Origin: Acrocarpospora corrugata
GTDB taxonomy: Bacteria; Actinomycetota; Actinomycetes; Streptosporangiales; Streptosporangiaceae
Reading direction: 5' to 3'
NCBI RefSeq assembly: GCF_009687845.1
Contig: NZ_BLAD01000048.1
Coordinates: 123,358-186,055 of the forward strand
Length of the DNA stretch: 62,698 bases
Part shown: in pieces, positions 10,431 to 13,035 of the stretch
Layout: each line of letters starts with the position of its first letter
Numbering within the stretch: position 1 is the first letter of the stretch
Position numbers and translations under genes: made by a program
The notes under the pieces: generated by a model
Databases searched by the model: none
What the model was told of the DNA's origin: nothing
What the model saw: the letters and a program-made list of their open reading frames with translations, nothing else

Positions 10431-10471
10431 CCGGTCAACTTCAATCGAACCGTCTCAAGAACGGCCCTGAG

Positions 10472-10544
10472 TGGAGCTATGGGGATTCGAACCCCAGACC
10501 CCCTCCATGCCATGGAGGTGCGCTACCAGCTGCGCTATAGCCCC
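10472..10544 (-). tRNA. tRNA-Ala (GGC anticodon)
   Basis: A 73-base cloverleaf on the minus strand. The acceptor arm pairs GGGGCTA with TAGCTCC, including the G3-U70 wobble that is the alanine identity element, with discriminator A73. The anticodon stem CCTCC/GGAGG holds loop ATGGCAT with anticodon GGC. The T arm contains GGTTCGAATCC. CCA is not encoded. A terminator follows at 10394-10430, so it is a single-gene unit. Confidence 0.95.
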
Positions 10545-10598
10545 TTGCGGTGTGTGTGAGTGTATCGGACCTCGGGGGTGAAGAGGTAACCGTAGGAA

Positions 10599-10625
10599 TG
10601 TCACATCGGGTCGGTGCGGTGCGTC
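10599..10625 (+). promoter_or_regulatory. ECF41-type promoter of the sigma factor gene
   Basis: TGTCACA at 10599-10605 and CGTC at 10622-10625 are separated by exactly 16 bases. This is the consensus I recall for promoters recognised by ECF41 sigma factors (TGTCACA-N16-CGTC). It lies directly upstream of an ECF41 gene, implying autoregulation. Only nine bases separate CGTC from the ATG at 10635, so transcription would start at or within a few bases of the ATG. Confidence 0.75.
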
Positions 10626-10634
10626 TGGAGGGTC

Positions 10635-11531
10635 ATGGGTGTGGAGGCGTTTCTGGAGCATCGGTCGGTTCTGGTCGGGGTGGCGTACCGGATCCTGGGG
10701 AGTGCGGCGGACGCCGAGGACATCGTGCAGGAGGCGTGGGTGCGGTGGTCCGAGGTGGAGCGGGGGGAGGTGGCGGATGCGCGGGCGTTTCTGGTGCGGG
10801 TGACGACGAATCTGGCGATCGATCGGCTCCGGCGGTTGAAGGTGCGGCGGGAGTCGTATGTGGGGGATTGGCTGCCCGAGCCGGTGAGCACGGGGCCGGA
10901 GGTGGCGGAGCGGGCCGAGCTGGCGGACAGCGTCGAGCTGGCGATGCTGGTGGTGCTGGAGACCTTGTCGCCGTTGGAGCGGGCCGTGTTCGTGCTGCGG
11001 GAGGTCTTCGGGTTCTCGCACGCGGAGATCGGGGAGACGATCGGGCGCGCGGAACCCGCGGTGCGGCAGCTGGCGCGGCGGGCCCGGGAGCATGTGCGGG
11101 AGCGGCGGCCACGCTTCGACGTCGATCGGCGGGAGCGGCGGGAGGTCACCGAGCGGTTCATCGGCGCCTGTACGGGCGGCGACCTGCGGGCGCTGATGGA
11201 ACTGCTGGCCAAGGACGTGACCCTGGTCTCGGACAGCGGCGGAAAAGCGCGGGCACCACGACGGATGCTGGTTGGCGTCGATCACGTGTGCCGTTTCCTG
11301 CTCGCGGTCACCCGCCCAGAAGGGGTCGCGGCCTTCCTCGCCCACGCGGGGATGCCGCCGGACACCGCGTTCGACCTGGAGATCTCGGAAGTGAACGGCG
11401 GACCGGCGATCGTGGCTTCCACGGGAGGTACGGCCTTCACAGTGATCTCGTTGCTGGTCGTGGACGGAAGGATCGAAACCATCTACTTGCTGGCCAATCC
11501 CGAGAAGCTCGCGCATATCGTGAGTGAGTGA
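10635..11531 (+). CDS. sigJ: ECF41-group RNA polymerase sigma factor (SigJ-like) with fused C-terminal SnoaL-like domain
   Basis: A 298-residue sigma factor. Region 2 contains AYRILGSAADAEDIVQEAWVRW and the DRLRRLKVRR segment; region 4 contains LSPLERAVFVLREVFGFSHAEIGETIG. Between them is YVGDWLPEPV, the linker motif typical of ECF41. The last 120 residues are a SnoaL-like domain ending in DGRIETIYLLANPEKL, close to the NPDKL signature by which ECF41 proteins are regulated without a separate anti-sigma. I chose the ATG at 10635, preceded by GGAGGGTC; an earlier in-frame ATG at 10614 would overlap the promoter. The promoter at 10599 suggests autoregulation, and the same element precedes the oxidoreductase gene at 11854. 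Confidence 0.93.
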   Translation: MGVEAFLEHRSVLVGVAYRILGSAADAEDIVQEAWVRWSEVERGEVADARAFLVRVTTNLAIDRLRRLKVRRESYVGDWLPEPVSTGPEVAERAELADSVELAMLVVLETLSPLERAVFVLREVFGFSHAEIGETIGRAEPAVRQLARRAREHVRERRPRFDVDRRERREVTERFIGACTGGDLRALMELLAKDVTLVSDSGGKARAPRRMLVGVDHVCRFLLAVTRPEGVAAFLAHAGMPPDTAFDLEISEVNGGPAIVASTGGTAFTVISLLVVDGRIETIYLLANPEKLAHIVSE

Positions 11532-11739
11532 TCACGGTCGGGGTCGATCTGGCGACTGGGGACCGCGCCCTGGTTGGGCGCGGTCGAGCTGGTTTGCCGT
11601 ACTTCCGATGACGTAGTTACGGCGCGGGCGGCGGCGCTGGGTCTGGTCAGCGTGCCGACGCCTGAGCAGACGGCGCGCACCGAAGGGTGGATCGCGGTTT
11701 CTCGTGACATCGCTGAACGAGTTGATGTCACGTTCTGAA
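11529..11739 (+). pseudogene. Possible frameshifted remnant after the sigma factor
   Basis: A GTG overlapping the sigJ stop opens VITVGVDLATGDRALVG. A one-base frame change near 11577 would continue into AVELVCRTSDD and ARAAALGLVSVPTPEQTA, up to a stop at about 11737. The opening resembles the first strand of FGGY or ASKHA kinases (GVDLATG). No full-length gene is present, and the similarity is short and from memory. It may be non-coding. Confidence 0.25.
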
Positions 11740-11824
11740 GGTGAATCACGGTCCCGGTGACGTCGCTGGACGGGTTGGCGTCACCTCTCGGTCCCGGTGA
11801 CGTCGCCGGATCGGTTGATGTCAC
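11704..11824 (+). repeat. Three 28-base inverted-repeat units upstream of the oxidoreductase
   Basis: Units at 11704-11731, 11757-11784 and 11797-11824 share the plan GTGAC(A/G)TC-N12-G(A/G)(T/C)GTCAC. The first has perfect eight-base arms; the second and third each have one mismatch. The second and third units also share the flank CGGTCCC. The right arm of the third unit supplies the TGTCAC of the ECF41-type promoter at 11819. They look like a set of operator sites or amplified copies of a promoter segment. Confidence 0.7.
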
Positions 11825-11845
11825 GTTTTGAGGATGGGTTGCGTC
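11819..11845 (+). promoter_or_regulatory. ECF41-type promoter of the FAD oxidoreductase gene
   Basis: TGTCACG at 11819-11825 and CGTC at 11842-11845 are separated by exactly 16 bases, the same geometry as the promoter before sigJ. CGTC is eight bases from the ATG at 11854, so the message should be leaderless or nearly so. This links the oxidoreductase to the sigma factor 0.3 kb upstream. Confidence 0.7.
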
Positions 11846-11853
11846 CAGGGGGC

Positions 11854-13035
11854 ATGGATGAAATCACCGTAATCGGAGGCGGGCTTGCCGGGCTGACGGC
11901 TGCCATCGCCTGTGCGGAAGAAGGTGCGCGGGTCGTCCTTCTCGAAGGGCACCGGGCGCTCGGAGGGCGGGCGCGGTCGTCGGCGGAGCCGTACGTCGCG
12001 AATGATGGGACTCACGTCTTCTACTCGGATGGGGAGCCGTTTCGGTGGCTTGCCCGGCGGGGGCTGGTGCAGCCGTATCGGCGGCTGGGCCTTCGTGAGG
12101 GGCGGAGGGCGCGAGTCCGGCATGACGGGAAAGTGAAGGCGTGGGTGCCTCGGCCGTTGCTGGTGGCGATCGCGAAGCGGGGGCTGACGGCGCCGGTGGC
12201 GGAGGACTTCCGGTCGTGGGGGGTCAGGCGGCTGGGCGTCGACGCCACCGATGCGGTGGCGGGGGCGCTGGGAGTCGTCACGTACGACGCAGATCCGGGG
12301 CGGCTGTCGGCCGGGTTCGTGTGGGAGCGGTTCCGGCGGGCGCTCGCGCCGAAGTTCCCCTCGCCCAGGTATGTCGTCGGCGGCTGGGGCCGGGTCATCG
12401 ACCGGATGGCCGCGCACGCCCGTGAGCTGGGCGTCCGCATCGAGACCGGGAGCCGGGCCGACGCGCTGCCGGCGGGGCCCACCATCGTCGCGACCTCGCT
12501 CGACGCCGCCCGCGTGCTGCTCGCCGACGACTCGCTGCGCTGGGAGAGCGGCCGGGCCGTCCTCCTCGATCTCGGCGTACGGCGGGACGAGCGCGACCTG
12601 TTCCTCCTCTCCGACCTGGACGAGGGCGGCTTCCTGGAGCGCTACTCCTCCCCCGACCCGACGCTGGCGCCGGACGGGGAGAGCCTGGTCCAGCTCCAGC
12701 TGCCGATGCGCCCGTCAGAGTCCAAAGCCGACGCGCTGGTACGGCTGGAGCGGATCGCCGACCTCGGGCTGCCCGGGTGGCGGGACCGGGTCACCTGGCG
12801 GCGGGACGCGCTGGCCAACGGGCGGACCGGCGCGCTCGACCTGCCGGGCACGAGCTGGCGGGATCGGCCGGCCATCGAGCGCGGCGACGGCGTCTGGTTG
12901 GCCGGGGACAGCGTTGCCGCCCCCGGCCTGCTCAGTGAGGTGGCGATGCACAGCGCGCTGATCGCCGCCGGGCACGCGCTGGCAGCCGTCACCCGTTCGG
13001 CGACTTCCTCGCGGAGATCGCCCGCTGCAGGATGA
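11854..13035 (+). CDS. FAD-dependent oxidoreductase (amine oxidase/phytoene desaturase-like)
   Basis: A 393-residue flavoprotein. The N-terminal dinucleotide-binding motif VIGGGLAGLTAAIACAEEGARVVLLE is followed by GGRARS, as in protoporphyrinogen oxidase, phytoene desaturase and monoamine oxidase relatives. The C-terminal GVWLAGDSVAAPGLLSEVAMHSALIAAGHA is the second FAD-contacting segment. The start at 11854 leaves the Rossmann fold at the very N-terminus. The substrate is unknown. ECF41 factors usually control a neighbouring carboxymuconolactone decarboxylase, oxidoreductase or epimerase gene, and this gene fits the oxidoreductase role. Its last 47 bases overlap the convergent permease gene. 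Confidence 0.85.
   Translation: MDEITVIGGGLAGLTAAIACAEEGARVVLLEGHRALGGRARSSAEPYVANDGTHVFYSDGEPFRWLARRGLVQPYRRLGLREGRRARVRHDGKVKAWVPRPLLVAIAKRGLTAPVAEDFRSWGVRRLGVDATDAVAGALGVVTYDADPGRLSAGFVWERFRRALAPKFPSPRYVVGGWGRVIDRMAAHARELGVRIETGSRADALPAGPTIVATSLDAARVLLADDSLRWESGRAVLLDLGVRRDERDLFLLSDLDEGGFLERYSSPDPTLAPDGESLVQLQLPMRPSESKADALVRLERIADLGLPGWRDRVTWRRDALANGRTGALDLPGTSWRDRPAIERGDGVWLAGDSVAAPGLLSEVAMHSALIAAGHALAAVTRSATSSRRSPAAG

Follow-up and report, generated by a model that had tools for sequence, protein, structure and literature searches.

A probable two-promoter ECF41 sigma factor module with putative leaderless messages at sigJ and a neighbouring flavoprotein gene of Acrocarpospora corrugata

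The stress-type sigma factor gene sigJ of the soil actinomycete Acrocarpospora corrugata and the flavoprotein gene downstream of it appear to form a two-promoter ECF41 module, which is most simply driven by SigJ and makes two leaderless messages; on the basis of sequence comparison, we assign this reading a probability of about 0.8. In the stretch of 62,698 nucleotides analyzed here (hereafter the window; contig NZ_BLAD01000048.1), sigJ occupies positions 10635..11531 of the plus strand and encodes an ECF41 sigma factor of 298 residues with a SnoaL-like C-terminal domain, and the gene of an FAD-dependent oxidoreductase (393 residues) occupies positions 11854..13035 of the same strand. The messages of both genes are very probably leaderless. 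The ECF41 promoter as such is already known; its conserved leaderless geometry appears unreported, as we found no report of such a geometry for ECF41 targets in the open-access literature searched.

Each of the two genes is preceded by an exact copy of the promoter motif. Upstream of sigJ, the -35 element TGTCACA (10599..10605, plus strand) and the -10 element CGTC (10622..10625, plus strand) compose TGTCACA-N16-CGTC at 10599-10625 with 0 mismatches, leaving 9 nt between the end of CGTC at 10625 and the ATG at 10635-10637. Upstream of the oxidoreductase gene, the -35 element TGTCACG (11819..11825, plus strand) and the -10 element CGTC (11842..11845, plus strand) compose TGTCACG-N16-CGTC at 11819-11845, also with 0 mismatches, and 8 nt separate the end of CGTC at 11845 from the ATG at 11854-11856. 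A preliminary description of this DNA had placed the two motifs nine and eight bases before the start codons and assigned them to ECF41; the spacings were reproduced, and the motif agrees with the published one (PMC3426412). Moreover, the arrangement that marks an ECF41 promoter, TGTCACA-N16(+/-1)-CGTC upstream of an ECF and/or a COE gene, was found at the locus.

A search of the whole window with one mismatch allowed gave 3 matches compared to 3.7 expected from shuffled sequences, so the count alone is no proof. A scan of the 9.27-Mb genome for TGTCACR-N16-CGTC, which the preliminary description had proposed as a check, returned four exact sites (3 forward, 1 reverse), two of which are this pair, and the reversed-pattern control returned 1 and 1. 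Among 20 relaxed sites genome-wide with an RTG codon 6-11 nt downstream, only those of sigJ and the oxidoreductase open recognized conserved genes starting there, the frames at the other 18 being judged by eye from translations alone. The pair is non-random because both elements are conserved in 5/5 Acrocarpospora genomes and in short-gap homologues (see below) of nine genera. This conservation in relatives rules out a chance match and confirms the TGTCACA/TGTCACG pair as genuine conserved promoter-like elements.

The sigJ product matches Pfam Sigma70_r2 and Sigma70_r4_2, with other sigma domains absent, and scores 309 bits against the NCBIfam SigJ model PRK09636 (cut-off 271) and 322.5 bits against TIGR02957 (SigX4), just under the cut-off of 323.25. 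A SnoaL_2 match at residues 173-264 (22.4 bits, E 0.0002) lies below the curated cut-off of 27. The motifs WLPEP and N-P-x-K (NPEK here) are invariant among 9 aligned homologues, and the DGGG motif reads DSGG in the window SigJ and in locus L006; we take DGGG and NPDKL to be the names of conserved ECF41 C-terminal motifs. WLPEP is the linker motif of ECF41 factors according to PMC3426412. The closest solved chain is SigJ 5xe7, aligned over residues 4-292, from Mycobacterium tuberculosis (organism as named in PMC8999054), which is likewise an ECF41 sigma factor with a SnoaL-type C-terminal domain; it belongs to a different genus from Acrocarpospora, and the likeness here is one at the protein level. 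Altogether, the SnoaL-like C-terminal extension of ~100 residues, WLPEP and a neighbouring COE gene are all present, and by its sequence the product is an ECF41/SigJ-type sigma factor. The first invariant residue of SigJ is F6, which fits the chosen start codon, the sole alternative being a GTG two codons in.

The oxidoreductase is amine-oxidase/phytoene-desaturase-like by profile, with Pfam hits to Amino_oxidase and FAD_oxidored and an N-terminal FAD/NAD-binding region; none of the NCBIfam models listed for it reached its cut-off. Its glycine-rich FAD-binding motif starts at residue 8, which fits the chosen start of this gene as well. Amino_oxidase falls within the definition of oxidoreductase used in the ECF41 paper PMC3426412.

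Published start sites of ECF41 promoters provide a ruler for the distance from the motif to the first transcribed base. At the SMb20029-rpoE9 promoter of Sinorhizobium meliloti, which has the same motif, the start was mapped 9 nt downstream of TGTCACA-N16-CGTC (PMC3616915), and in the S. meliloti sequence given in Table 1 of PMC6180224, 8 nt separate CGTC from the final base, taken here as the transcription start; this system differs from ours in being a COE-then-ECF operon. The two promoters of Wecke et al. 2012, B. licheniformis ydfG and R. sphaeroides RSP_0606, have TGTCACA with CGTC or TGTT and likewise belong to an ECF41 sigma factor beside a COE gene. They have leaders of 22/23 nt by 5'-RACE with a ribosome-binding site, whereas in the window the ATG stands at their +1 position. 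Table 5 of the same paper (PMC3426412) gives 31/32 and, if it counts from the -10 element, the difference of 9 is in our reading the motif-to-+1 distance; the merged pattern of these two promoters had no match in the genome collection. Applied to the window, the 9-nt ruler gives starts at 10634-10635 and 11854-11855, that is, at the ATGs to within a base. The sigJ message is thus predicted to start at 10635 or within 1 nt of it, and the oxidoreductase message at 11854 or 11855.

The distance from CGTC to the start codon is strongly conserved among relatives. In five Acrocarpospora genomes it is 9, 9, 8, 8 and 9 nt for sigJ, and 8, 9, 9, 9 and 9 nt for the oxidoreductase. Searching 121 genomes of the order with the oxidoreductase gave 57 matches at E<=1e-60, all 57 of which were examined; the initial reading of upstream sequence covered 55 loci, and three genomes were added afterwards. 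Of the 53 homologues with the motif, 24 have a gap of 8 nt, 16 one of 9 nt and 13 one of 29-67 nt, and none has a gap of 10-28 nt. The three genomes read later each have 8 nt, giving totals of 43 short (8-9 nt), 13 long (29-67 nt) and one without a motif (L093) for the 57 genomes. At 41 of the 55 loci the immediate upstream neighbour is sigJ; the motif was found before 37 of these sigJ genes, always with a gap of 8 or 9 nt (37/37), and no motif was found upstream of the other 4. In all 77 short cases (40 oxidoreductase and 37 sigJ genes) the -35-to-start distance is 35-37 nt. The elements themselves are equally constant, with TGTCAC and CGTC each in 36/37 sigJ promoters, and TGTCAC in 39/40 and CGTC in 40/40 short-gap oxidoreductase promoters; the seventh base of the oxidoreductase -35 element is G in the window and likewise in 28 of these 40.

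Short gaps occur in nine genera at the oxidoreductase and likewise in nine at sigJ, genus g64 being mixed for the oxidoreductase. These homologue counts are not independent because ancestry is shared, and a start 7-10 nt from the motif was given preference wherever several were possible, which affects L039, L053 and L056. The long-gap class is softer, because only 4 of its 13 -10 elements are CGTC (5 are TGTC and 4 poorer), so that some of these gaps may come from chance sites. A directly upstream sigJ gene is found at 38/40 short-gap loci versus 3/13 long-gap loci; at the short-gap loci L085 and L087 none was found upstream. Locus L075 (G011) is mixed, with a sigJ gap of 8 nt and an oxidoreductase gap of 51 nt with a Shine-Dalgarno (SD) word. 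The long-gap homologues correspond to the published leadered ECF41 type.

The two promoters of the module are not identical, since TGRTA stands directly before CGTC in 33/37 sigJ promoters (L040-L092) versus 0/40 short-gap oxidoreductase promoters; the window sigJ promoter is without it at 10617-10621. TGRTA is a possible extended -10 element or the mark of a second reader, and the sigJ and oxidoreductase promoters may differ in strength or in such a second reader.

Initiation signals of translation separate the two gap classes. SD words (GGAG, GAGG, AGGA or AAGG, counted from -16 to -5) are present in 0/40 short-gap oxidoreductase genes, 13/13 long-gap oxidoreductase genes and 2/37 sigJ genes, the two being those of the window and of L044. 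Pairing with the 16S tail has a mean energy of -2.4 kcal/mol in the short class, -10.0 in the long class and -2.1 for sigJ, with coding controls of -4.0 and -6.6 kcal/mol. In addition, the start codon is ATG in 76/77 short-gap genes versus 10/13 long-gap genes. This pattern of AUG without an SD word was seen at the window oxidoreductase and its relatives; the window sigJ is excepted by a GGAGG at 10627..10631 (plus strand), which stands before the predicted message start, with 3 nt between it and the ATG. GGAGG precedes the sigJ ATG in 5/5 Acrocarpospora genomes, the other four lying outside the 37 counted; at 3 nt it is too close for a normal SD sequence. Before the oxidoreductase, AGGGGG lies 1 nt from the ATG, and SD use at this gene was rejected; the 40 short-gap homologues have no SD words. 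The preliminary description had held that both messages begin at or near the start codons, leaving the GGAGG-like sequences unused by ribosomes. The first part is supported by the 8-9 nt gap, the absent SD words, the ATG starts and the S. meliloti start site; the second held for the oxidoreductase, and at sigJ the use of GGAGG stays a minor rival.

A further set of named loci comprised 70, of which 43 were read, some repeating genomes of the 57-genome set, and 27 partial matches were left out. The 43 loci include 11 with a short gap, 19 whose start is at least 30 nt distant (among them 5 with a -10 element other than CGTC/TGTC), one weak site at 3 nt and 12 without a motif; further candidate starts exist at L119, L134 and L143. 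Among the 20 Streptomyces loci of this set, 15 carry the motif 30-61 nt before the start, together with SD-like words judged by eye, and no motif was found in 5. About 4-5 of these 15 have a -10 element other than CGTC (AGTC in L134 and L139; CGGT in L140 and L141), and L134 also has an ATG 4 nt from the motif. At L155 (Dactylosporangium siamense), where the oxidoreductase gap is 8 nt, a divergent ECF41-like gene apparently starts at the oxidoreductase -35 element.

An unselected class-wide scan of 148 genomes for TGTCACA-N16-CGTC-N{4,34}-ATG, whose rows are not tied to genes, gave 85 rows (some sites giving several) versus 13, summed by eye, in the reversed control. The best-filled bin is that of 8 nt, with 11 rows versus 1.9 expected per bin (from bins 10-26; Poisson P 6e-6), and all 11 come from five other families and none from the family of the window organism; a second rise occurs at 27-34 nt. 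The corresponding N17 scan of 216 genomes gave 76 rows, again not tied to genes, with ~32 in the reversed control (summed by eye); 9 rows at 8-9 nt versus 4.2 expected represent a weak excess (P 0.03), and 6 of the 9 come from the family of the window organism. The leaderless ECF41 geometry therefore seems to extend beyond the family, without being universal. In the window's own genome, an ECF41-type promoter near an ECF41 paralogue (L100; G000 C47:18760-18796) has a gap of ~34 nt and AGGAG, judged by eye, and constitutes a leadered counterpart.

The oxidoreductase promoter overlaps coding sequence in many relatives. At 28 short-gap loci, its -35 element lies within the last sigJ codons, read as (M/L)-TCA-(CA/CG)N. 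The tail serine is encoded by TCA in 28/28 of these loci, versus 11 of 556 serines (2.0%) in the bodies of 41 sigJ genes. The four other Acrocarpospora have a DUF429 gene of 248-260 codons (assigned by Pfam for one congener's gene) between sigJ and the oxidoreductase promoter; in 3/4 of them its 3' end holds the promoter and its stop codon overlaps the oxidoreductase start, and in L009 the DUF429 gene ends at the -35 element. Correspondingly, the sigJ tail serine is lost in three of these congeners (KMAHV, KMAHV and KIAHL) and encoded by TCG in the fourth.

Alignment with the congeners revealed an internally deleted and frame-broken remnant of the DUF429 gene in the window (11528..11742, plus strand, end approximate), with a 509-bp internal alignment gap in addition to smaller ones, and 448 bp shorter overall than L006. 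Three inverted repeats GTGACRTC-N12-GRYGTCAC follow at 11704-11731, 11757-11784 and 11797-11824 (plus strand), which are explained as the 3' end of DUF429 repeated in tandem; the third contains the oxidoreductase -35 element. The region upstream of the oxidoreductase is thus the remnant of a deleted gene plus three tandem copies of its end, a feature that the preliminary description had missed. The minus strand of the first repeat was also considered as the site of a divergent ECF41 promoter, which was dismissed, as no CGTC stands at the proper spacing (by eye). On the other side of the locus, a tRNA-Ala gene (10471-10544, minus strand) precedes sigJ in divergent orientation; the segment between them, 10545-10598, is similar in five Acrocarpospora, and its minus strand holds a TTACCT...TACACT-like promoter for tRNA-Ala, judged by eye.

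Several other readings of the locus deserve consideration. Transcription might start a few bases before each ATG, leaving leaders of 1-5 nt rather than strictly leaderless messages, which we consider possible but on the unlikely side. The Sinorhizobium ruler, counted to the ninth nucleotide, has sigJ transcribed from 10634, a single base short of the ATG, and gaps of both 8 and 9 nt occur. However, purines are the usual transcription start bases, and the ninth base at sigJ is C and the tenth the A of ATG, whereas at the oxidoreductase the ninth is already the A of ATG. It is distinctly improbable, by comparison, that an upstream promoter supplies a conventional leader on which ribosomes use the GGAGG-like sequences, the near-ATG motifs being minor or decayed. 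The GGAGG conserved before sigJ throughout Acrocarpospora would fit it, as would readthrough from sigJ into the oxidoreductase, given that no terminator-like site was found in 10440-11900; the stop-start overlap of DUF429 and oxidoreductase in three congeners also makes coupled translation of a longer message conceivable. Yet a scan of 10440-11900 restricted to the sigma-70 type found no such site, and a housekeeping promoter for the locus was rejected on this ground; moreover, the SD-like sequences lie 1-3 nt from the ATGs, and SD words are nearly absent from the short-gap genes but present in every long-gap homologue.

Even if both promoters are leaderless, they could be read by one or more paralogous ECF41 factors, with SigJ not the sole or main activator. 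The genome encodes many ECF factors (32 matches to SigJ at E<=0.001), which could recognize these promoters too; the ECF41-type promoter on C47 (L100) lies near such a paralogue, and no sigJ was found upstream of two short-gap homologues. Nevertheless, we hold this unlikely, as only four exact sites exist genome-wide, two of them here, and sigJ adjoins nearly all short-gap loci; in addition, the neighbour is the only target detected in B. licheniformis and R. sphaeroides (PMC3426412) and in S. meliloti (PMC6180224). Very improbable is a further control layer in which the three repeats serve as the operator of a repressor or activator acting on the oxidoreductase promoter. The copies are well matched, the last overlaps the -35 element, and the array has no other exact match in the genome (one place matches with 2 mismatches), but they resemble the DUF429 3' end of the four congeners, in which the array is absent; tandem copies within a decaying gene are the preferred explanation, and an operator was set aside in its favour.

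Taken together, the evidence favours a SigJ-driven module with two leaderless messages. We infer the SigJ dependence of both promoters from the motif, the adjacency of the genes and precedent (PMC3426412), and likewise infer the exact start sites, the leaderless translation and the signal. An ECF41 holoenzyme, most simply with SigJ, would bind TGTCAC[A/G]-N16-CGTC before sigJ and before the flavoprotein gene, and transcription would start 9-10 nt past CGTC, which coincides with the A of each ATG give or take one base, so that both messages would be leaderless. Their translation would begin directly at the 5'-AUG, as it does for many actinobacterial genes, and would not involve Shine-Dalgarno pairing. 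In this way SigJ would amplify itself and produce the enzyme encoded next to it, and its SnoaL-like C-terminal domain would probably act as the sensor. For the gene order >ECF> >COE>, the motif stands before both genes in about 20% of cases according to PMC3426412.

The geometry resembles that of the actinobacterial leaderless genes with a TANNNT -10 element surveyed by Zheng et al. 2011 (PMC3160421), in which the -10 element also lies ~10 bp before the ATG. That large survey sought Pribnow-like boxes and, by its own statement, detects only these and misses other promoter types. The S. coelicolor sigJ cited there as a documented leaderless gene, which the cited title puts under sigma H, shares its name with the window gene, and orthology is not implied.

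A bolder proposition, which we regard as rather unlikely, is that a two-gene sigma regulon is locked by selection to leaderless translation throughout the family and favoured when SD initiation is impaired, with the -35 elements of many targets placed in the sigma tail. Should the embedded -35 reading be true, the gene for a promoter-reading protein would also contain a promoter element. The overlap of promoter and sigma tail means that the promoter may dictate part of the C-terminal sequence of such regulators. Moreover, the gap can serve as a simple rule to predict which ECF targets are leaderless in the genomes of actinomycetes, and the same rule is useful to check annotated start codons. 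One ECF group provides a natural contrast, in which the same enzyme gene is of the leaderless type in some genera and leadered with an SD sequence in others such as Streptomyces, so that the purpose of leaderless messages would become testable with matched promoter pairs.
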